Assembly (NCBI GenBank): GCA_002838945.1
Contig: PGXB01000030.1
Location: forward strand, 1-46,359
DNA: 46,359 nucleotides
DNA from: a candidate division Zixibacteria bacterium HGW-Zixibacteria-1
GTDB lineage: Bacteria; Zixibacteria; MSB-5A5; GN15; PGXB01
Reading direction: 5' to 3'
The notes under the pieces are model-generated. The model was given only the letters and a program-made list of their open reading frames with translations. It searched no databases and had not been told where the DNA came from. Of the stretch, positions 23,732 to 46,359 are shown piece after piece. The translations under genes were made by a program, and so were the position numbers. The stretch's first letter is position 1; each line of letters opens with the position of its first letter.

Positions 23732-24208
23732 ATGAACTATAAAGAAATTGCCGGGAACCTTAACGCCGCAGGGCTGAAGGTGGGAATAGTCGTGAGCCGG
23801 TTCAACAGTCTGTTGACGGCCAAACTTCTTGATGGCGCCCTGGATTGCCTGAAAAGACATGGGGCCGATGAGACAAAAATTGGTGTTGCCTGGGTACCTG
23901 GTTCATTCGAAATTCCCTATGCCGCATCAAAAATGGCCTCATCCAAAAAATATGATGCGGTCATTTGTCTTGGCGCGGTAATCAAAGGGGATACGCCTCA
24001 TTTTGATTTCATTGCCAGTGAAGCTACCAAAGGTATCGCCAAGACTGCCATGGAGAGCGGCATGCCGGTTATCTATGGCCTTATCACCGCCGATACCCTG
24101 GAGCAGGCCATCGAGCGGGCGGGGACCAAAGCCGGAAACAAGGGCTGGGATGCTGCTCAGGCGGCGATTGAAATGGTGAATCTGTATCGTGAAATCGAGA
24201 AATCATGA
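23732..24208 (+). CDS. ribH: 6,7-dimethyl-8-ribityllumazine synthase
   Basis: Condenses the pyrimidine from RibD with the butanone phosphate from RibB to give lumazine, the substrate of RibE. 158 residues, normal length. Signatures are [52 protein letters not shown] and the C-terminal [19 protein letters not shown]. Usually forms icosahedral or pentameric assemblies. AGGAG precedes the ATG. Its stop overlaps the nusB start by four bases (ATGA). Confidence 0.96.
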
Positions 24209-24609
24209 GTTCCAGACGAGTCGGACGCGAATATGTACTAAAAGCGCTGTATGCTCTTGAGCAGGGGACGCAGACGGTTGATGAAATTAAGGCGACGGTA
24301 TTGGAAGAAGGAAATCTCGATGAAAAGACACTATCGTTCACCCGCCATTTGTTCGACGAAGTGGTAAAGAATCTCGAGACCATTGACAAGCGCATAGTTG
24401 AGGTGGCCCAAAACTGGAAACTCAGCCGAATTGCCATTGTCGATAAGAATATTCTTCGCATGGCCATCTGCGAGATTATGTATTTGCCGGACATACCGAT
24501 GAAGGTGGCCATTAATGAGGCGGTCGAGTTGGCCAAAAAATACAGCACTTTCGAATCGGCCTCGTTTGTCAATGGGATTCTGGACCGGGTTTTTCACGAG
24601 CAGGAATGA
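24205..24609 (+). CDS. nusB: Transcription antitermination factor NusB
   Basis: Binds boxA RNA with S10 and supports rRNA antitermination. 134 residues, all-helical, with [20 protein letters not shown] at the start, [17 protein letters not shown] in the middle and [29 protein letters not shown] at the end broken into the family's two final helices. It is the last gene of the riboflavin operon, a very common position, with a four-base overlap to ribH. A strong terminator follows. Confidence 0.95.
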
Positions 24610-24624
24610 TGGGATACTTAATGG

Positions 24625-24653
24625 AAAGAGCCCCGCATCGGCGGGGCTTTTTC
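24625..24653 (+). terminator. Terminator of the riboflavin-nusB operon
   Basis: AGCCCCGC (24629-24636) pairs with GCGGGGCT (24641-24648) around ATCG, with A's before and T's after that extend the stem. It begins 16 bases after the nusB stop. Confidence 0.93.
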
Positions 24654-24732
24654 TAATGCCATGAAATATTGGCTTATCACATTTTCCGGCTGGACAAATC
24701 GCAAAAAATGGTTATATTCTAAGTCTGTTTTG

Positions 24733-24738
24733 TATAAT
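24733..24738 (+). promoter_or_regulatory. -10 box upstream of the glycan locus
   Basis: A perfect TATAAT, with no convincing -35. Transcription from it would start near 24745, just upstream of the DUF2723 gene, and would make a start at 24746 leaderless. Confidence 0.4.
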
Positions 24739-24769
24739 ATCTTAGGTGGAAATTGATATCGAGGACGAG

Positions 24770-27700
24770 GTGCACAACAAAATATCCGCCGAAAGTGTAA
24801 ATTCTACGTTCGACAGGGCAAACGCAATTATTGCCGGCTTAGTTTTCTTGATTGCCCTGGTGGTCTATTTCCTGACCAAAGCGCCGACCGTCTCATTCTG
24901 GGACTGTGGTGAATTTATCGCCTGCTCTTATATCCTGGGCATACCGCATCCGCCGGGATCACCGCTCTACATAATCTTCGGTCGCATTTTCGCTTTTTTT
25001 CCGATCGCCGCCGATATTTCGGTCCGGGTCAATTTGTTCTCGGTGATCAGTTCGGCCTTTGGCGCCATGTTCGGCTATCTGGTAACGGTGCGGGTAATCA
25101 GGTTCTGGTATGATCGGCGCAGTGATATTTACAACAAAATCATCATTTATATCGGCGGTTTTACCGGGGCGCTTTTTATGGCGTTTTCAATGACTAACTG
25201 GGGCAACTCGGTTGAGGCAGAGGTTTATGCCGCAGCCATAATGGTGATGATGATTATTTATTGGCTGGTCTTGAAATATTTTGAAAACCGCGAAACCGCT
25301 CCCGGCGGAAAGTTTATGCTTCTTGCGGCCTATATGGCGATGCTCGGTGTCGGCATACATCTGACGCTTTATGTTATCGTTCCGGTACTGGCCGTCTATT
25401 TCATCCTGAAAAAAGAGGTTCTCACCAGGCAGTGGGCGATTGTTTCGCTGTTCTTTTTTGTGGAACTATTTTTGATGTTTATGCTGTCGGCAAGGCCGGG
25501 GGAGATCCCGTACTATCTGCCGGTACTCATTATTTTCGTGGTCTTTGTATTTCATTCGGTCATGCTAAATAAGCTGGTTCGTCCAATATTGATTACTATC
25601 ATTTTGTATCTGTTTGCCATATATCCTGTCTATTTTCTGGCGGTCGATACAGTCTCCTCGAGTTTAACGGGATCCGGTTTGGCCGAATCGATATCGGGGC
25701 TGGCGGCAATTCCGATCGGGTGGATAGGATTTATCGCGTTGGTTTTGTGGGGATTATTTTCGGTTTTCAGGCTATATATGCCAGTGGCCGGTGAAGACGC
25801 CGGAGGCGTATGGCTGATAACCGCGGTTTATTCGCTGGCGCCGGTGGTTCTGATCGGCATCGGATATTTATTCAGCGGCTATTATGCTTTTATGGCACTG
25901 ACATTGATAGTCCTGGCGCTGGTGGCGCTGGTACTATGGAAACATATCAACTGGCTGATCCTGATCGGCTTCGGCGCTATTTCGATGGTAATTCTCGGAT
26001 TCTGGTACCTTGTGACCGGCATCGTCGTGGGCGGAACCGCCATAATGCTGTTCGGGATATTATTCAAAGACAAAAGCTGGAAGACGGCGCTGGCCATAAT
26101 TCTACTAGCCGTAATCGGCTATTCGGTCCATTCATATATTCCGATTCGTTCCGCACATAATCCGGCTATCGACGAAAACAATCCGTCACGTTCTTTTACC
26201 GCCCTGGTGGGGTATCTTGAGCGAAAACAGTACGGCACCGAGACAATGACTTCGCGCATGTTCGAAAGAAGGGCCGAATGGGTAAATCAGTTCGGCGATT
26301 ACCGGCATATGGGGTTCTGGGGCTTTTTCAAGGATCAGTATGGATTCGCCGGAGCGCGCTTCTTTATTATCCTGGTGCTCGGGTTGTTTGGTATCTGGGA
26401 GACGATCCGCCGCAAACCCGAGATAGGGCTGCCGCTGCTGACGGTGATACTGGTATGTTCGGTTGGAATTGTCTTATACATGAACTTTGCCGACGGGACA
26501 CGCCTGAATCAGATTACGGGAATGGATTATCTCGAAGTCCGGGACCGGGACTATTTTTTCACGCCGGCCTTTGTATTTTTTGGCCTGGCTATCGGGCTAG
26601 GCATCGCGGCATTTATTGATCTTGTCCGCGACACGGTAAAAAGTCATGGCACTGCGGTTCGAAATGCCGCCTTTGGCGTTACCTCTTTATTGGTCTTTTT
26701 GCCGATCATGCCGCTGACGGGGAATTATTTCTACAATGACCGGTCACGGAATTACATGGCTTTCGATTATGCCGACAATTTCCTGAAAAGCTGTCCGGAA
26801 AACGCCTTGTTTATCACCAGCGGCGATAATGATACTTTCCCGGTCTGGTGTCTTCAGGAAGTTTACGGCATCAGAAAAGATGTCAAGGTGATCAATTTAT
26901 CACTGGGTAACACCGACTGGTACATAAAGCAGTTGCGCGACAAACTCAATGTCCCCATCGTCTGGACGGACAGCCAGATCGATCAACTGCGCCCTTACAA
27001 GGATGAGGAAGGGACAGTGTTTCGCATTCAGGATCAGTTGACCGATCATATTATCACCGTGAACAAATGGAAATACCCGATAGTTTTCACGGTTTCATCA
27101 CAGCCGGAGAGCCGGCGCTTCCGGGGCAAATCGCTCGAAGATAATTTAATAATCGAGGGTTTGGTTTATCGTATGACGCCGAATAAGGGGAAGGACCAGG
27201 TTGATATCGATTTGACGAAAAAATTGTATGAAGGTGAATTCGAATATCGCGGCGTTGCGGATCCGACTGTTTATAAGGACGAAACCAGCCGAAGGCTGAC
27301 GAATAATTATGCCCAGGGTTTCCTGCTGATGGCTGATACGATGAAAGGGCTGGACAATTATGAAGGGGCTTTGGAATATGTACATAAGGGCTTGAAAATT
27401 TTGCCATGGTCATATGATATTTATGCTTATGCCGCCCAGACGCTCGGACAGATGGGTCACCTTGACACCCTTCAGGCCTTTATCGACAATGCACCGGTCG
27501 AGGAAAAATGGAAACTTTACTTTAACTGGGGCATGGCCGCCAGATATGAAGGGCGGGTCGATGACGCCATTAAGGTTTTGGGACAATGCCTGCGGCTTTA
27601 TCCCGGTTACACCGAGTGCTATCGCGGCCTGGTCGGGACCTTATATCAAAACCGGCGGTATGCGGGGTTGCGCCAAGTGGTTAATGGGTGGGTCAAGGAT

Positions 27701-38230: not shown

Positions 38231-38675
38231 ATTTCTCCATAATGATTTTCTCGGGTTGATCGTTCGGCTGTTTATCGGGATAATTTTTATCTATGCTTCT
38301 CTGGATAAGATTCAATCCCCGGCGCAATTCGCAAGGATAATATACAATTATCATATTATGCCGGGCATGTTGATAAACATCCTTGCCCTGCTGTTGCCCT
38401 GGATCGAAATTATCAGTGGAATGTTATTGATTGCCGGTATTTATAAGGAAGGCAGCATTCTTATTATAAATGTAATGGTCCTGGTTTTTATCGTTGCCAT
38501 CGGTGTAAACCTGTATCGCGGCATAAATCTTGAATGCGGATGTTTTTCGGTCAGCTCCAAAGCAAAGGAAAGCGCCGTCGGACTATTATTAAGAGATATC
38601 GGGCTATTGATTTTGGGCGTGTATGTATATTTGAACAGGTCCCGGCGTTTTGATCTTATAAAAACAAAAGCTTAA
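38214..38675 (+). CDS. MauE/DoxX-like membrane protein
   Basis: Four-helix integral membrane protein of 153 residues. The start is probably TTG at 38214 with GGGAG seven bases before it, overlapping the rhodanese gene by 17 bases. GLIVRLFIGIIFIYASLDKI is typical of the DoxX/MauE group, and NLECGCFS carries the C-x-C pair (about residue 107) typical of MauE proteins involved in disulfide chemistry. With the rhodanese upstream, it suggests a periplasmic thiol or sulfur function. The 3' end overlaps the secretin gene on the other strand by four bases. Confidence 0.78.
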   Translation: MNGTNKFLHNDFLGLIVRLFIGIIFIYASLDKIQSPAQFARIIYNYHIMPGMLINILALLLPWIEIISGMLLIAGIYKEGSILIINVMVLVFIVAIGVNLYRGINLECGCFSVSSKAKESAVGLLLRDIGLLILGVYVYLNRSRRFDLIKTKA

Positions 38676-39952
38676 TTATTTAGAATTCGCGGCGTAATCA
38701 TTATCGTCAGATCGGTCTTGGTCGTCTGCACTGATTTATGTTTGAAAAGCCCGCCGATAATCGGAATCGAACCCAGAAAAAAGACCTTCTGTTCGCTTTC
38801 GATTTTATCTTCTTTGAACAACCCGCCCAGCACGGCCGTTTCTTCGTTTTTAACCGTGATTCTGGTATGAATTGACCGCTCCGATGTAATCGGTTTCTGA
38901 TTATCCAGAGGACCGGAGTAGCCGATAATCTCGGCAACAGTCGGATTTACATCGAGGATAATCTGGTTATCTTCGGTTATATGAGGGGTGACATACAGAG
39001 TGATGCCGACTTCCTCATCCTGAAAGGTAACGATATCCTGGACGGCGCCGCCCTCGCTGAAACGATTAATAGTCTGAATAGGCACAACTGTGGCGACCTT
39101 GATTTCGGCCGGGTGGTTGTTGAGAGTAGTAATTTTAGGATTCGAGATAAGCTTGGAATTGCCGCTTTGCTCAAGGAATTCGAGGACCAGATTGAGCTCA
39201 TTAAGAGATAGTTTTCCCCATTCCCATTTTCCATCGGGAAGGTCGATCTGGCCGACCGCTTCATTGGCAGTAGCGAAGGTGGTTGTTCCGCCGGCACCAG
39301 TGGTTACGCCATGGCCGCGGGCGGTGAGGCTGGTGGGCCACTTAAAACCGGCCTGGAGATCGGTGTCGAGGTTGGTTTCAACAATCCTGACTTCGATCGC
39401 CACCTGCGGTTCCGGCCTGTCGGTTTTTCTGATAAAATCGGCGACCAGCCTGGCGGCATCGGGAACATCGATAATGACAATTTGCGACGGTACCGGTATT
39501 CCGGTTTTCGATCCTTTGTATTGCGGATCGGTCACAATATTTATTTTTCCTCTGGCGGACAGAAGCCCTTCGGCGGCACTTACAGCCGCGGCCGGGGAGA
39601 TATAGTCGAGCGCGACGGTCTCGATGACCAGTTCGCCCTGGGCCGGCATTTCGACCGGTTTGACGACGATAATATTGCCGGCCAAATAATAGTTGTAGCC
39701 GTTGGAGGCCAGGATAGCACGAAGGGCATTCTCGAGACTGACATTGTCGAGTTTGATGGATATGCTGCCTTCAATCAGGCCCGACTGAACGAGATTCAGA
39801 TTATATTGCTGTGCAATCATGTTCAGCACCGTGGAGATCGGGACATCATCGTATTGCAGTGATATATCGACGTTCAAATCAGGTGAGCCTGAAGACGCGG
39901 GAGTGTGTAATGCGATAAAGATTAAGGCTATTAATAAGATGCGTGATTTCAT
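38672..39952 (-). CDS. Secretin of a type IV pilus / type II secretion-like system
   Basis: Outer-membrane channel, short for the family at 426 residues. A signal peptide (about 1-21) is followed by an STN-like domain (about 25-100, VPISTVLNMIAQQYNLNLV, KLDNVSLENALRAIL) and one N1-like ring domain (DVPDAARLVADFIRKTD). The secretin core (about 185-425) has QVAIEVRIVETN, KLISNPKITTLNNHPAEIKV, VGITLYVTPHITEDNQI, the VLGGLFKEDK motif, and the end LTIMITPRIL. Its start overlaps the PilP-like gene by four bases. It is the last gene of the pilus operon and is tail-to-tail with the MauE gene. Confidence 0.93.
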   Translation of the reverse strand: MKSRILLIALIFIALHTPASSGSPDLNVDISLQYDDVPISTVLNMIAQQYNLNLVQSGLIEGSISIKLDNVSLENALRAILASNGYNYYLAGNIIVVKPVEMPAQGELVIETVALDYISPAAAVSAAEGLLSARGKINIVTDPQYKGSKTGIPVPSQIVIIDVPDAARLVADFIRKTDRPEPQVAIEVRIVETNLDTDLQAGFKWPTSLTARGHGVTTGAGGTTTFATANEAVGQIDLPDGKWEWGKLSLNELNLVLEFLEQSGNSKLISNPKITTLNNHPAEIKVATVVPIQTINRFSEGGAVQDIVTFQDEEVGITLYVTPHITEDNQIILDVNPTVAEIIGYSGPLDNQKPITSERSIHTRITVKNEETAVLGGLFKEDKIESEQKVFFLGSIPIIGGLFKHKSVQTTKTDLTIMITPRILNN

Positions 39953-40392
39953 GACTTTTCCTTTATAATGGTCAGAGTAAATTGGAGTCCGTCCTTATCA
40001 AGGGTGACCGTTTCCTTATCAACTTGTACTACCCTGGCTCCATTTATTATATCGCCGCCACGAACGATTTTCTTATTGATAATCGCCGATGGGCTGTTAT
40101 TGTCGAAGAGAATTCCGCTCAATGTCCAGACCGGCTGAGTCACCCCGACTGCGGAGAGAATGATGTGTTTGGGGCCGCGGTAAAACGGATCACGTCCCCA
40201 TTCGAGCGCAGAATATTTTTCAATGTTAATACTCTCGGTTTTGATTCCGGTCCGTATAGCGTCTAATTTGGCCACCGGGCGCGGCACGTCAACCTGCGTT
40301 CTGGGTTTATTCCCGGATAGGTTGTAAACACCCCAGATAACCGCGGCGATGAAAATAACGTAAATGATTCGCTGTCGCTTTTTTGTATCCAT
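39949..40392 (-). CDS. PilP/GspC-like inner-membrane linker protein
   Basis: 147 residues. An N-terminal helix (about 8-25) anchors it. Residues about 60-140 form a small beta domain with GRDPFY, VWTLSGILFDNNSPSAIIN and VRGGDIINGARVVQVDKETV, resembling the HR domain of PilP and GspC that connects the inner-membrane complex to the secretin. It lies directly before the secretin and after pilO, as pilP does in pil operons. It overlaps both neighbours (one and four bases). Not a lipoprotein, unlike most PilP. Confidence 0.78.
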   Translation of the reverse strand: MDTKKRQRIIYVIFIAAVIWGVYNLSGNKPRTQVDVPRPVAKLDAIRTGIKTESINIEKYSALEWGRDPFYRGPKHIILSAVGVTQPVWTLSGILFDNNSPSAIINKKIVRGGDIINGARVVQVDKETVTLDKDGLQFTLTIIKEKS

Positions 40393-40952
40393 CAGCTATC
40401 CTTAATAGTTCCCAGAACGGCCCGGAAACCGAGACTTATATCGGACAGGGGCCGTTTTTCGACCGGGTTGCTGATCCGGCAGTGATTGAGCCCCTTGTAA
40501 AAACTTTGTTTCTCAATTTCTTCGATAAATTTGCCAGCATTCGACAAGGTTCCTCGAAATTTGAGGGTCATGTCGAGCATCCGGGGCGAATTCGCATCGG
40601 GTGGTGCGTTATTCAGTTCGAGAAGTTCCTGGAGGGAAGGGGATATCTCGACCAGCTCCAAATCATGTAAATGCGCCTTCCCCGCAAACTCATCAAATAA
40701 CTTTATCAGGTCCTCTTTGGAATATAACCTCGAAATCAGCAAATGCTTTTCTTCAAGCATTTTTTGCCGCATATCGCAATATTCCGGAATCTGTATTATG
40801 ACATTTTTGAGATCGGCCAGCTGCCTCTCCGACTCGTCTACCGAGGACCTCAGTTCCCGGTTTTCCTGTATCTGGGGTGACGTTATAAAAAGATACCATA
40901 CCAGCGCAATGCCGGCGGCCGCAGCTATAGTTATGATTATTTTCTGCTTCAT
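40392..40952 (-). CDS. PilO-like pilus alignment protein
   Basis: 186 residues with an N-terminal membrane helix (about 4-24), a coiled-coil stretch (about 30-75, ELRSSVDESERQLADLKNV) and a ferredoxin-like C-terminal domain (about 85-175, DLELVEISPSLQEL, FRGTLSNAGKFIEEIEKQ). This is the PilO architecture, which pairs with PilN in the inner membrane. The start overlaps the PilM-PilN fusion gene by four bases. Sequence is weakly conserved in this family, so position in the operon carries much of the assignment. Confidence 0.82.
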   Translation of the reverse strand: MKQKIIITIAAAAGIALVWYLFITSPQIQENRELRSSVDESERQLADLKNVIIQIPEYCDMRQKMLEEKHLLISRLYSKEDLIKLFDEFAGKAHLHDLELVEISPSLQELLELNNAPPDANSPRMLDMTLKFRGTLSNAGKFIEEIEKQSFYKGLNHCRISNPVEKRPLSDISLGFRAVLGTIKDS

Positions 40953-42550
40953 ATTGCCGCCCCCATTCCGAGTTGAAAGTCTATGACAAAGCCGTCATCG
41001 GTTACTTTCTTGATATGGCGATTCAGTTTGACATCTTTAAAAAATGGCGAGCCCTGCAGACGGGCGATAAATTCGGCCAGGACGATTTCCGGTGGCGGGT
41101 CCGAGGAAATAGCATGACCCGTCAGAATAATTTTACAGGTATCGCCTTCATTAACCAGATCATAAACATCCAGTTTGATTTTTTCCGGAGCCAGTCTGGA
41201 TAATTCTTTAAGATTGAGATTAAGGAAGGTCGGCTCCTGATTGAGTTTATCCATCAGCATCCGGTCGGCAGCCATCTGACTCTTGATTGAATGATACATT
41301 ACATAAGTCGGAGAGCCGCGAAACATGGCCATCTGATTTTCAGCCGCCGCCAGACGGATATGATCGATGCCGTTTGCAAATTTTAGAGAACCCCAGTAAG
41401 CAACCAGGACCGCCATAACCACTAGTACTGCCGGCACGGCTTGCCTCAGGAAGGCAGCATTGTCCCGTTTTTTCTTTTTTTCGGGAGGGAGAAAATCAAT
41501 CAAGCCGGGACTGTCCAAAGCCAGGGCCACGGTCGCAAGTGAAACCGGGATCTGATCTACAATATCTTCCAACTCCGGCTGAGCCTTCAGTAAGCTCTCG
41601 ATCGGAAAGCGTTTAAACTGAATGCCGAAACGATCGGACAGATTCGCAATCAGCTCATCCGAGTATGACAGGTCACCATAGACAAATACGGTATCGGCGG
41701 TCGTACTGGAAAATTGCCCGACATAATAATCCAGGGAGTTCTGTATTTCGTTAACCAGCGTTTCCGTGAAATATTCGTATTTGATGCTGTTTTCGGGCCC
41801 ACCCGATAATGTCTCCGAACCGACCGAACTGATATGCATGAATTCGAGCCGGGTCCCGCGATAAAAGCTGATTTCGGAACTATTTTTCTTGACGTTTATC
41901 AAAGCATAGGTCACGGCTGGGTCGAAATTCTGTATGTAGGGAAGCATCCGACCGATGGCCTCTAATTCATGGTGTACACTGTGGACATTGGTCCCGATTG
42001 TGTCAAAAAGCTTCAGCCTGTCATATATATCGCTTTGGAGAACCGCCAGCAAGGACGCCGAGACGGTATCGTTCTGGTTGCTTCTTACGTTTTCATTTAT
42101 GTAATGCCCGTAGAAGGCCTTTTCCAGACCATATGGAACTCTTTTATCACCTTCCCAATATATCGCCTCTGCCAATTCACTGCCGGACATCCGGGGAAGA
42201 GTGATAATCCGGAAGGCGGTTTTGGGGCCGCCGATGCCGAGGACATATCTTGTGGAAGATGTCCCGAATCTTTTAATGTATTCTCTAATTTCCTTAATAA
42301 TAAAACTCCGCCGGTCCTCCTCGGTTTTCAGCGAGCGAGGCAGATACTCTTTGGAAATATGAATCAGCTTTGAGTGAAACAGGGTCTGCTGGGCCACGGC
42401 AAATTGCAGGAACGACTGATCGAAATGCACGGCAATTGTGCGTCCGAATCGGCGACGCCCTGTAGTCCTGAGCGAATGCAGAAACAGCTGGAGACGGCTT
42501 TTCAATTCCTCACCGGCGATAGTTTTATTTTCCATCAGCGTGCTTTTCAT
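40949..42550 (-). CDS. PilM-PilN fusion protein
   Basis: 533 residues joining two pilus proteins that are usually separate. Residues about 35-345 are PilM, an actin-like fold (RTIAVHFDQSFLQFAVA, YVLGIGGPKTAFRIITLP, VHHELEAIGRMLP, VYGDLSYSDELIANLSDR). After LIDFLPPEKKKKRD comes one membrane helix (about 368-390) and a PilN-like domain (about 395-530, LSRLAPEKIKLDVYDLVNEG). In typical systems PilM binds the cytoplasmic tail of PilN. The PPEKKKKRD joint corresponds to the LLPP-type motif of PilN's own tail. I start at the second ATG (42550) because AGGA is better placed for it; 42556 is the alternative. Confidence 0.88.
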   Translation of the reverse strand: MKSTLMENKTIAGEELKSRLQLFLHSLRTTGRRRFGRTIAVHFDQSFLQFAVAQQTLFHSKLIHISKEYLPRSLKTEEDRRSFIIKEIREYIKRFGTSSTRYVLGIGGPKTAFRIITLPRMSGSELAEAIYWEGDKRVPYGLEKAFYGHYINENVRSNQNDTVSASLLAVLQSDIYDRLKLFDTIGTNVHSVHHELEAIGRMLPYIQNFDPAVTYALINVKKNSSEISFYRGTRLEFMHISSVGSETLSGGPENSIKYEYFTETLVNEIQNSLDYYVGQFSSTTADTVFVYGDLSYSDELIANLSDRFGIQFKRFPIESLLKAQPELEDIVDQIPVSLATVALALDSPGLIDFLPPEKKKKRDNAAFLRQAVPAVLVVMAVLVAYWGSLKFANGIDHIRLAAAENQMAMFRGSPTYVMYHSIKSQMAADRMLMDKLNQEPTFLNLNLKELSRLAPEKIKLDVYDLVNEGDTCKIILTGHAISSDPPPEIVLAEFIARLQGSPFFKDVKLNRHIKKVTDDGFVIDFQLGMGAAI

Positions 42551-42564
42551 TGCCATTATCCTGT

Positions 42565-43701
42565 CTAAATAGTGAAGGTAATCGACGATCCATCGCTAAA
42601 AGTTATGCTAAAGGCTGTTCCGGCCATATTAGCCGCCGGGCCTCCGCCAGATGGTGAGGTGTTAAAATCCTGTAATTTGATAGTAATGGTCGAACCGTCG
42701 GTTAGCGTTTTCGAACTATTGAAAGTGGCGCGGTCGCCCGATCCGAAACGCGGGCTTGTCTGGTTGGCAACACTGGCGTTGTCCCAGCGGACGCGTTCAT
42801 AATAGGCAGTGGGCGAATGAGTATAAACGGCCTCCAGCCAGTCTATGGTAATGTTTGCGCCGGAATTGTTGGTAATATTGAATTCTACATCACGACCGCC
42901 GTTGGTGGTGGTGGCTGATCCGGCCACATATTCGACACCGCTTCCTCCGCCGGGGCCGCCGCCTCCCGACCACAGGGCATACCCGAATCTGATATTGTTG
43001 ACAACCGAAGATCTGGGTGGGACGGTAACATAAGAGAAGACAGTGTCATTGGTGGTCGTGGACACCACCGTAATGGTATGATTGCCCATCGGCAGGCCGG
43101 CCAGACTGTAATTGCCCGAGGGCGAAGGCTTGACAGTCAACGTTGACATTGAGCCGGCGCCGTCAGGAAATTCGATTATAACATCAACTTCACCGCTGTG
43201 CGTGCCGGGGGGAATGCTCTCGGCATCAAGAATGGTCCCTCGGATTGAATTGGCGGTCAAATCGGTGATATCTGCGGCCAGTTGTTTGGTGAGATTGCTT
43301 CCCGAACCGGATGAGGTTATTGTCAAACTGCCGCCATAGGCGTATTCAACACCCCACCCGTCTTTCTTGAAATCATCGGAAGCTTCGACAAAATTGTTGC
43401 TGATATAAGGTCCATTCCATGTCGAAAATCCCGATGGAGCGGCAACCAGGGCATCCAGATCGGGCGGCAGGGAGCCGACATCGCCGACATAGCCAAAATC
43501 GATGCGGCTGCCGTTGCTCATCAGATCGGGCTTACCGACCATGGCATCGGCCAGAGCCTGCATCTCGGTCCGCGTTGATTCGACGCGCCCGGTTTCGATT
43601 GATGATTCCATCGTTTTCATAGCCACACCGGAAATGATACCGATAATGATTATCACCATTACCAGTTCAATGAGTGTCATGCCTTTTTCTGAACCAAACA
43701 T
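42565..43701 (-). CDS. Large pseudopilin with carboxypeptidase-regulatory-like domain
   Basis: 378 residues, much longer than ordinary pseudopilins. The leader MFGSEKG is short, and cleavage after G7 leaves MTLIELVMVIIIIGIISGV with the conserved E5. A GspG-like middle (GYVGDVGSLPPDLDALVA, STWNGPYISNN, WGVEYAYGGS) is followed by a domain resembling the carboxypeptidase regulatory fold (about 165-250, RGTILDAESIPPGTHSGEV, GNYSLAGLPMGNHTITVV) and a Gly/Ser/Thr-rich beta C-terminus (about 265-378). Probably a minor, tip or adhesive pilin. AGGCGGAT precedes the ATG. Confidence 0.83.
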   Translation of the reverse strand: MFGSEKGMTLIELVMVIIIIGIISGVAMKTMESSIETGRVESTRTEMQALADAMVGKPDLMSNGSRIDFGYVGDVGSLPPDLDALVAAPSGFSTWNGPYISNNFVEASDDFKKDGWGVEYAYGGSLTITSSGSGSNLTKQLAADITDLTANSIRGTILDAESIPPGTHSGEVDVIIEFPDGAGSMSTLTVKPSPSGNYSLAGLPMGNHTITVVSTTTNDTVFSYVTVPPRSSVVNNIRFGYALWSGGGGPGGGSGVEYVAGSATTTNGGRDVEFNITNNSGANITIDWLEAVYTHSPTAYYERVRWDNASVANQTSPRFGSGDRATFNSSKTLTDGSTITIKLQDFNTSPSGGGPAANMAGTAFSITFSDGSSITFTI

Positions 43702-43710
43702 ATTATCCGC

Positions 43711-44184
43711 CTAAAAAGTCACTACAATATCAGGGTCCGCCCCCAGAGAAGTTATTGTCCTGACGGCTGGGTCATAGCCATAGACGCTGTCCCAGGCGTC
43801 ATAAAGATATTTATTCCCAGCGCTGTCCAGATATGGCCCGTTCCAGCCGACACGGCTGAATTTATCATAGGCCGGAATGGAATCCGGTTTTCGCACCAGA
43901 TCGACCAGATTTGAAGGGGGATGGCCGACATCGCCGATAAATCCCCTGTCAATGTATTGTCCCCCTGTTACCAGTTGGGGATTACCAATGATAGCTTCCT
44001 TGATTCGTCGCATTTCCTCCTTGGTAACATTTATTTTGGAGTTTTCCGAAAGCGATCCGAATCGGGGGATAGCCACGGCTGCCACGATACCGAGGACCAC
44101 AATAACTATGACCAGCTCAATAAGTGTGAAGCCATTTTCTTTTTTAATCGGTCGATATACTCTACGGACAAGTGAATAATCCAT
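43711..44184 (-). CDS. GspG-like pseudopilin with long leader
   Basis: 157 residues. The prepilin site is G18 followed by FTLIELVIVIVVLGIVAA, so the leader is 18 residues, longer than usual and basic. The globular part has the GspG pattern with GFIGDVGHPPSNLVDLVRK and VGWNGPYLDSAGNKYLYDAW, almost the same wording as in the neighbouring large pseudopilin, implying local duplication. It is cleaved by the prepilin peptidase at 13.3 kb. No strong ribosome binding site before its ATG. It is seven bases from the adjacent pilin gene. Confidence 0.87.
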   Translation of the reverse strand: MDYSLVRRVYRPIKKENGFTLIELVIVIVVLGIVAAVAIPRFGSLSENSKINVTKEEMRRIKEAIIGNPQLVTGGQYIDRGFIGDVGHPPSNLVDLVRKPDSIPAYDKFSRVGWNGPYLDSAGNKYLYDAWDSVYGYDPAVRTITSLGADPDIVVTF

Positions 44185-44190
44185 TTCGGA

Positions 44191-44628
44191 TTACCAGTTG
44201 TTTTCGCCCGCGGAGTTAGTGTTCGGCCAAATCTCGCCCGTGTTAAAATTATAGGCCCAGCCGCCGCGACCACCGCTGACATTGCCTTTACCAAGGGCAC
44301 TGCCGTCGACAATACTATCCAGAGCCATAGCATCGTCCTGGTACGGGTTTTTGGGAAGGCTCTGTTCCATGACTTCACCGATCAGATTGACAGTATCCAG
44401 GGTCGGCCAGACCGCGGTTCCGGTGGTGACTGCCTTGTTGGCATAATAAATTGAAATGCCCGATCTGAGGGCGCCAAGGGCACCGCGGGCCGAAGCTTCT
44501 TTCGCCTCCGATGAAATATCGGCATACTTGGGAATGGCGACCGCGGCCAAAATGCCAAGAATTACAATAATGATCACCAGTTCAATCAGAGTAAAACCAC
44601 TCTGTTTTGAGAGATTTTTGAAGGCCAT
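44191..44628 (-). CDS. Type IV pilin / major pseudopilin
   Basis: 145 residues, short leader ending at G11 followed by FTLIELVIIIVILGILAAVA, then KYADISSEAKEASARGALGA. The C-terminal half (GWAYNFNTGEIWPN) resembles MSHA and GspG-type pilins. AAGGAG lies ahead of the ATG, the best ribosome binding site among the three pilins, suggesting it is the most abundant subunit. It is the first of three pilin genes in transcription order and follows the platform protein gene. About 80 bases of noncoding sequence precede it. Confidence 0.9.
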   Translation of the reverse strand: MAFKNLSKQSGFTLIELVIIIVILGILAAVAIPKYADISSEAKEASARGALGALRSGISIYYANKAVTTGTAVWPTLDTVNLIGEVMEQSLPKNPYQDDAMALDSIVDGSALGKGNVSGGRGGWAYNFNTGEIWPNTNSAGENNW

Positions 44629-44710: not shown

Positions 44711-45925
44711 TCAACCCCGGAATACTTGAATTAAGTTCCACATTGGCAAGAAGATAGCCAAGGCAACTATGAGCACGAAAACACCCAGAACCACGGTCAG
44801 AATCGGCTCCAGGAGCGATGTCAAATGCCGCGATTTATAATCCACTTCTTTGCTATAATGACTGGCCGTTTCATGCAACATCAATTCCATCGAACCGCTT
44901 TCCATTCCGACCTGCATCATGCGAAGCGCCATTTCGGGAAAAAATTCAAGATCTTTTATCAGGGATGTTAATTCCCTTCCTTCACGGAAAGAATCGGCCA
45001 TCTGGTCGATTTCAGATTTTAGCTGAGAATTTTTGATAACATTCGAGAGCATTTCAAGTGAACGCACGATAGGAATGCCGCTGGCCAGCAATATCTGGAA
45101 AATATATGAGAACCGGGCAATGTTGCCTTTTACAATCAGATCGCCGAAGACCGGTAACCGGAGAAAGCCCCTGTCGAAAGACAGCTTCCCCGATGGTGTC
45201 GAGTAGATTTTTCGTATTATAAAAAAGGAGATACCGGCGGCGGCGACGACAATTATCCAATAACCGGTCACAAATTGATTGACCCAGATAAGCAATTTCG
45301 TCGGCAGGGGAAGGGAGGCGCCCATCTTGGAATAAAAGGTCATGAAACGGGGGATGACAAAGGTAATCAGGACCACGAAGGCTCCCATGATGGCTCCCAC
45401 CACCGCCAGCGGATACCTCGTTGATGATTTTATCTGGCGGTTCAGTTCCATATCGCGCTCCAGCATCTCGGCGAGAGAATCCAATATCGTGTCCAACTGC
45501 CCGGAAACTTCTCCGGCGGCAACCGTGGCGCTGTAAATACTGGGGAATATTTGGGGGAATTCTTCCATTGATTCCGAAAGCGAGCGGCCGGCCTGAACCC
45601 GGTCACGAATGTTTTTTAAGGCGGTATTAAAATAGCTTTTGGAATCACCCACCCTGATCATGGCCAGCGCATTTAATATGGGAATACCGGCATGGTACAG
45701 AGTTGACAAGCTTCGTGTAAAAATAATCAGGTCCTCGTAAAGCCGCCCCTTCATGAATCCAAACAGCCCGGGGCGATCGTCTGATTTTTGGGCGGTTATC
45801 CGGGTGGGAACAAGCTGCTGTTCGGCCAGGATGGCCGCAACTCTTCGGGCATCTTCAGCCTGAATGGTTCCGGTCATCAGTTCGCCTGCGGCGGATCTGG
45901 CCTTATATGAAAATGACTTAGACAT
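44711..45925 (-). CDS. GspF/PilC-type inner-membrane platform protein
   Basis: Inner-membrane platform around which the pilus or pseudopilus is assembled. 404 residues from the ATG at 45925; a longer frame to 45973 is open but SKSFSYKARSAAGELMTG is the conserved start. Two T2SSF domains (about 55-180 and 260-380) each hold a membrane helix region. Family motifs are LYHAGIPILNALAMI, VAAGEVSGQLDTILDSLAEML, LLASGIPIVRSLEMLSNV and a final LLEPILTVVLGVFVLIVALA. The start overlaps the ATPase stop by eight bases. Confidence 0.95.
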   Translation of the reverse strand: MSKSFSYKARSAAGELMTGTIQAEDARRVAAILAEQQLVPTRITAQKSDDRPGLFGFMKGRLYEDLIIFTRSLSTLYHAGIPILNALAMIRVGDSKSYFNTALKNIRDRVQAGRSLSESMEEFPQIFPSIYSATVAAGEVSGQLDTILDSLAEMLERDMELNRQIKSSTRYPLAVVGAIMGAFVVLITFVIPRFMTFYSKMGASLPLPTKLLIWVNQFVTGYWIIVVAAAGISFFIIRKIYSTPSGKLSFDRGFLRLPVFGDLIVKGNIARFSYIFQILLASGIPIVRSLEMLSNVIKNSQLKSEIDQMADSFREGRELTSLIKDLEFFPEMALRMMQVGMESGSMELMLHETASHYSKEVDYKSRHLTSLLEPILTVVLGVFVLIVALAIFLPMWNLIQVFRG

Positions 45926-46270
45926 TGATTGCGGTCTCTCGCTCAGTGCCGACAACGGCCTCCCGCTCGACAATCGAAATCACGCGCAGCAATTCCTCGA
46001 GGTTAACTTCACCGCTTCGAACCTTGTCGAGCCCCTCTTGAAACAGCGGCCGATAGCTCTTGCTTGAGGCATAATTCCTGAATTTGACATCCGAAGCATT
46101 GTTTATAATCATTTCCGACATGACATCATCGACGATAACCAGTTCATATATGCCGGTTAATCCTTTGAATCCGGTCATGCGGCAGCGATTACATCCGGTG
46201 CCTTGCCTGAACTTTATTTTATCCGCTTCGGCCTGAAGTCCGGCGATCTTGATCTGGATTCCTAAATTCA
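45918..46270 (-). pseudogene. GspE/PilB-type secretion ATPase, C-terminal remnant cut by an IS element
   Basis: Last about 110 residues of the assembly ATPase. The zinc motif part CNRCRMTGFKGLTGIYELV and the C-terminal ASSKSYRPLFQEGLDKVRSGEVNLEELLRV are typical of GspE/PilB/MshE. Upstream of LGIQIKIAGLQAEADKI the frame no longer resembles the family: the sequence MFVDLSHNN ... CCTSFVN comes from the end of an insertion sequence. Walker motifs and the N-terminal half are not in the window and would lie on the far side of the element, if present. In frame, an ATG at 46325 could give a 135-residue product, without ATPase function. Confidence 0.8.
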
Positions 46271-46281
46271 CAAACGAAGTG

Positions 46282-46302
46282 CAACACCTGTATAAGGTGT
46301 TG
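46282..46302 (+). promoter_or_regulatory. Hairpin just before the IS transposase start
   Basis: CAACACC (46282-46288) pairs exactly with GGTGTTG (46296-46302) around TGTATAA, ending two bases before the ATG. It may hide the transposase start when transcription enters from outside. The loop also resembles a -10 box. Confidence 0.5.
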
Positions 46303-46304
46303 TT

Positions 46305-46359
46305 ATGGGACAAATCTACAAACAACTTACGGTTGAAGAACGGTGCGAAATTGCCCGTT
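46305..46359 (+). CDS. IS30-family transposase, N-terminal fragment at window edge
   Basis: Only 18 codons are visible before the window ends: MGQIYKQLTVEERCEIAR. This matches the start of the helix-turn-helix of IS30 transposases (K-x-L-T-x-E-E-R-x-x-I). The DDE catalytic part is not in view, so completeness cannot be judged. Confidence 0.7.
   Translation, partial: MGQIYKQLTVEERCEIAR

Follow-up and report, generated by a model that had tools for sequence, protein, structure and literature searches.

Transposon interruption of an assembly ATPase gene

At the right edge of the DNA studied here, an operon resembling those of type II secretion and type IV pilus systems (T2SS/T4P-like) runs into a mobile element within the gene for its assembly ATPase. 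A sequence-only reading had proposed that an IS30-like element interrupts this gene. This raises the questions of whether the break is real, whether it is fixed in the population, what it would cost the operon, and why the element landed there. The window is the entire contig C30 (46,359 bp), and its right edge is the contig end, 99 bp into the left end of an IS30-family element. The source genome comprises 3.83 Mb in 82 contigs and is 96.7% complete; its closest named relatives are Candidatus Zixiibacteriota metagenome-assembled genomes, with an ATPase identity of 82% in isolate B117_G9, and it is probably a metagenome bin, as its relatives are. Features of the window are as follows.

38672..42556, minus strand: PilM-PilN fusion, PilO- and PilP-position genes and secretin, open
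42565..44628, minus strand: three pilin-like genes, open
44711..45925, minus strand: pilC/gspF platform protein gene, open
45918..46260, minus strand: C-terminal part of the assembly ATPase gene, codons 464-576 plus stop (from PF00437, the joined frame and orthologs)
46258..46260, no strand: 3-bp target duplication, ATT on the plus strand and AAT on the gene strand, repeated at C52:24901-24903
46261..46359, plus strand: left end of the IS30-family element, truncated where the contig stops (identified from five further copies that lie at contig ends)
46261..46286, plus strand: left terminal inverted repeat CCTAAATTCACAAACGAAGTGCAACA, compared with the right end GGTGGATTCACATTTGAAGTGCAACA
46305..46359, plus strand: start of the transposase frame (MGQIYKQLTVEERCEIAR...), ATG at 46305, cut by the contig end (full relative, L109)

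The remainder of the operon, described as intact in the earlier reading, is so: PilC, the three pilin-like genes, the PilM-PilN fusion, the genes in the PilO and PilP positions and the secretin are all open, with the PilO-position protein giving no match in a family search. The ATPase gene is represented in the window by its C-terminal part alone (coding 45921-46260, minus strand, with the stop codon at 45918-45920), where a profile search of the genome contigs placed PF00437 at 45984-46229 (profile positions 291-370, E=1.5e-10). An N-terminal part flanked by a 2- to 3-base duplication was to be expected elsewhere, and it lies at the end of C52 (23513-24903, 463 codons). There, PF00437 matches 24026-24955 (profile 2-312), stopping 46 bases short of the contig end, with an MshEN domain (PF05157) upstream.

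Both contigs stop inside the same element. Host sequence on C52 runs to 24903 and is followed by the right end GGTGGATTCACATTTGAAGTGCAACA, so that the contig end reads CCGCAGGAAAT and then, across the junction, GGTGGATTCACATTTG; on the gene strand the window reads GTGAATTTAGG and then AATCCAGATC. The proposed boundary near the residues L-G-I-Q was correct to within 4 bases: host sequence runs to 46260 rather than 46264, and the left end of the element, CCTAAATTCACAAACG, begins at 46261, with L-G read from the element and ATC (I) as the first host codon. A transposase start on the opposite strand within 45 bases was also borne out by the ATG at 46305, 44 bases into the element.

When AAT is counted once, the two parts form an open 576-codon frame of the GspE/PilB type, with the break in codon 464. 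The joined frame contains both MshEN and T2SSE domains (PF05157 and PF00437) and a tetracysteine motif, CPYC-X30-CNRC, within the form CXXCX21-40CXXC. Across the comparison set of 14 other genomes of the same family, the ortholog is open in 14 of 14 and 70 to 82% identical, and the joined ATPase aligns with all 14 without a gap at the join. In relatives, the intact gene is flanked by the same neighbors, a 561-aa gene divergent from the ATPase (here on C52) and pilC (on C30). No uninterrupted gene is present at the locus in the assembly, where the element splits it between C52 and C30. Since the assembly contains no complete copy of the element, we infer the contiguity C52-element-C30 from the ends. 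These data make it very probable that an IS30-family insertion with an AAT duplication broke a T2SS/T4P-like assembly ATPase gene in this member of Candidatus Zixiibacteriota. A copy of a multicopy element would have inserted into codon 464 and duplicated 3 bp (AAT), parting the gene into its C52 and C30 portions. For annotators, the two ATPase fragments should be treated as one gene on two contigs.

Age of the insertion

The insertion had been suggested to be recent. Copies of the element ends are 98 to 100% identical to each other. The C-terminal part of the ATPase is 65% identical to that of the nearest relative, compared to 87% for the rest; decay after the insertion was considered as the cause and rejected, as an equal drop occurs between intact orthologs. 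In all comparisons, intact ortholog pairs included, conservation is lower in the C-terminal part than in the N-terminal part, and in three of four comparisons the C-terminal part from the window matches other orthologs at least as closely as the nearest relative's does. Because the C-terminal part has no excess decay, the insertion looks recent, as proposed. A search of a same-genus genome found no copy of the left end, an absence made uncertain by that genome being fragmented and 86% complete.

A recent insertion, in what is probably a metagenome bin, would also fit a mixed population or a reversible switch in which some cells retain an intact ATPase gene. This is unlikely, since an uninterrupted copy is absent from the assembly, and transpositional excision is reported not to reverse IS30 insertions at hot spots (PMC9333248).

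Predicted consequences for the operon

Insertion of the element separates CPYC from CNRC, and the last 113 codons are lost from the frame. The predicted truncated product consists of 463 host codons and a 19-residue tail, MVDSHLKCNNCSKNTSDGV, read through the junction. In EpsE the tetracysteine CXXCX21-40CXXC is required for function, whereas Thermus thermophilus PilF depends on its cysteines only at high temperature (PMC5061722). With the dicysteines of the zinc motif separated and the last 113 codons gone, the truncated ATPase would probably not be a working motor, and loss of function is likely. The inverted repeat of the element, read in the ATPase frame at the end of C52 (L021), happens to encode CNNC, so that the truncated product would contain CPYC-X15-CNNC; this spacing is shorter than the usual 21 to 40.

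Expression of the downstream operon would probably be lower as well, because the element separates it from the sequence upstream of the ATPase. A promoter scan near the junction returned 2 matches versus 1.0 expected, about chance level, and no outward promoter is therefore claimed.

A second pilB, the presence of which bears on whether assembly could continue, is indeed encoded: the PilB of C2 is complete (565 aa) and accompanied by PilT and PilC, and C31 carries a second secretin beside PilM, PilN, PilO and PilP, as read from gene order and sequence. The disrupted machine could thus still work, driven by the C2 PilB. Such substitution is quite improbable: identity between the two ATPases is only about 45% (about 42 to 46% between the two types), nearly all relatives carry both together, and C2 and C31 supply their own platform, PilMNO and secretin, observations that suggest dedicated ATPase use. 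The co-occurrence of the two types in nearly all relatives makes it probable that the C2 PilB belongs to a machine of its own; it may or may not drive the disrupted one.

Disruption of the ATPase gene by insertion is clean but ordinary in kind. Its value is as a clear example, from an uncultured phylum, of a gene lost recently to transposition. A literature search on insertion sequence disruption of pilB gave no paper matching the full combination searched.

Identity and copies of the element

Seventeen ends of the element are known in the source genome (11 right and 6 left), every one at a contig end, because the element is repeated and the assembly stops at its ends. No whole copy is assembled, and the transposase frame is represented by its two ends alone. 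L109, a relative of 1,031 bp from another genome, is full-length, and its 335-aa product is an IS30-family transposase with HTH_38 and rve domains, scoring 250.7 bits against NF033563 (NCBIfam IS30; cut-off, 80). The terminal inverted repeats CCTAAATTCACAAACGAAGTGCAACA and GGTGGATTCACATTTGAAGTGCAACA are of the kind found in this family, as are the short target duplications: AAT in the ATPase gene, GGT at C23/C55 and TTC at L109, with GAA consistent at palindromes. An rve match on C46 was rejected as a copy; it belongs to a different transposase.

Among all combinations of the 11 right and 6 left ends, AAT is common to C52 and C30 only. Among ends with nonpalindromic flanks, the only matching pairs are C52-C30 (AAT) and C23-C55 (GGT), and both restore open frames; the C23-C55 pair thus acts as an internal control for the C52-C30 pairing. 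At the C23 end (L023) and C55 start (L016), the same element interrupts another gene, whose product reads as an NAD(P)-binding protein from its sequence; the empty site is open. An assembly chimera joining an end of the element to an intact ATPase gene, conceivable for a repeat whose ends all lie at contig ends, is very unlikely, as both junctions were assembled independently and would need to be in error at one site with an identical 3-bp duplication, and an intact majority gene should have linked C52 directly to C30.

Target preference for dRS3-like palindromes

The element prefers palindromes resembling the dRS3 repeats of Neisseria and mostly sits in such hairpins. The flanks of 8 of the 11 right ends and 4 of the 6 left ends are those of the palindrome ATTCCC-N8-GGGAAT (contigs C10, C21, C26 [both ends], C40, C50, C68, C69, C31, C42, C43 and C44; L003 to L006 and L024 to L031). 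The empty site of L109, ATTCCCGCCTACGCGGGAAT, with its TTC duplication, has the same pattern, in agreement with the source-genome flanks. The site in the ATPase gene, GCAGGAAATCCA, resembles the right arm GCGGGAATCCA. At the C31 end (L006) and C43 start (L005), about 40 bp of host sequence beside the element is common to both flanks, which places the element there inside a further dispersed repeat. On C67, a right end (L022) without a matching left end retains an ATTCCC in its flank; the distance to the junction, 19 bases, is that seen at the palindromes, and this insertion site may be a half-site target.

Perfect free copies of the commonest form, TCATTCCCGC-N4-GCGGGAATCC, number none in the source genome and nine in the same-genus genome; with a looser pattern, three free palindromes are present in the source genome. 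One possible, though doubtful, explanation is target saturation as a driver of gene loss: the element would have filled every perfect common-form target and then spilled into genes, including the pilus ATPase, while the same-genus genome without the element keeps its nine free.

Comparison with known systems

The target preference is the more useful part of these results, adding an example, outside Neisseria, of an IS30-type element whose hairpin target is defined. REP-type palindromes are known targets of insertion sequences (PMC1525189), and IS30 uses near-palindromic hot spots with 2-bp duplications (PMC9333248). The element resembles the IS30 family (IS30 and IS1655) in its transposase (from L109), terminal inverted repeats, short duplication and palindromic-target preference; it differs from Escherichia coli IS30, which duplicates 2 bp (PMC9333248), in duplicating 3 bp and in preferring the ATTCCC-N8-GGGAAT hairpin. 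The joined ATPase is like GspE/PilB ATPases in its two domains and tetracysteine motif, but it reaches the curated cut-off of neither the PilB nor the GspE equivalog model, and here it is interrupted. The dRS3 repeats of Neisseria follow the pattern ATTCCC-N8-GGGAAT (PMC3898611), equal to that of the palindromes occupied here, a likeness in pattern; almost 700 are present in the meningococcus, compared to few copies per genome here.
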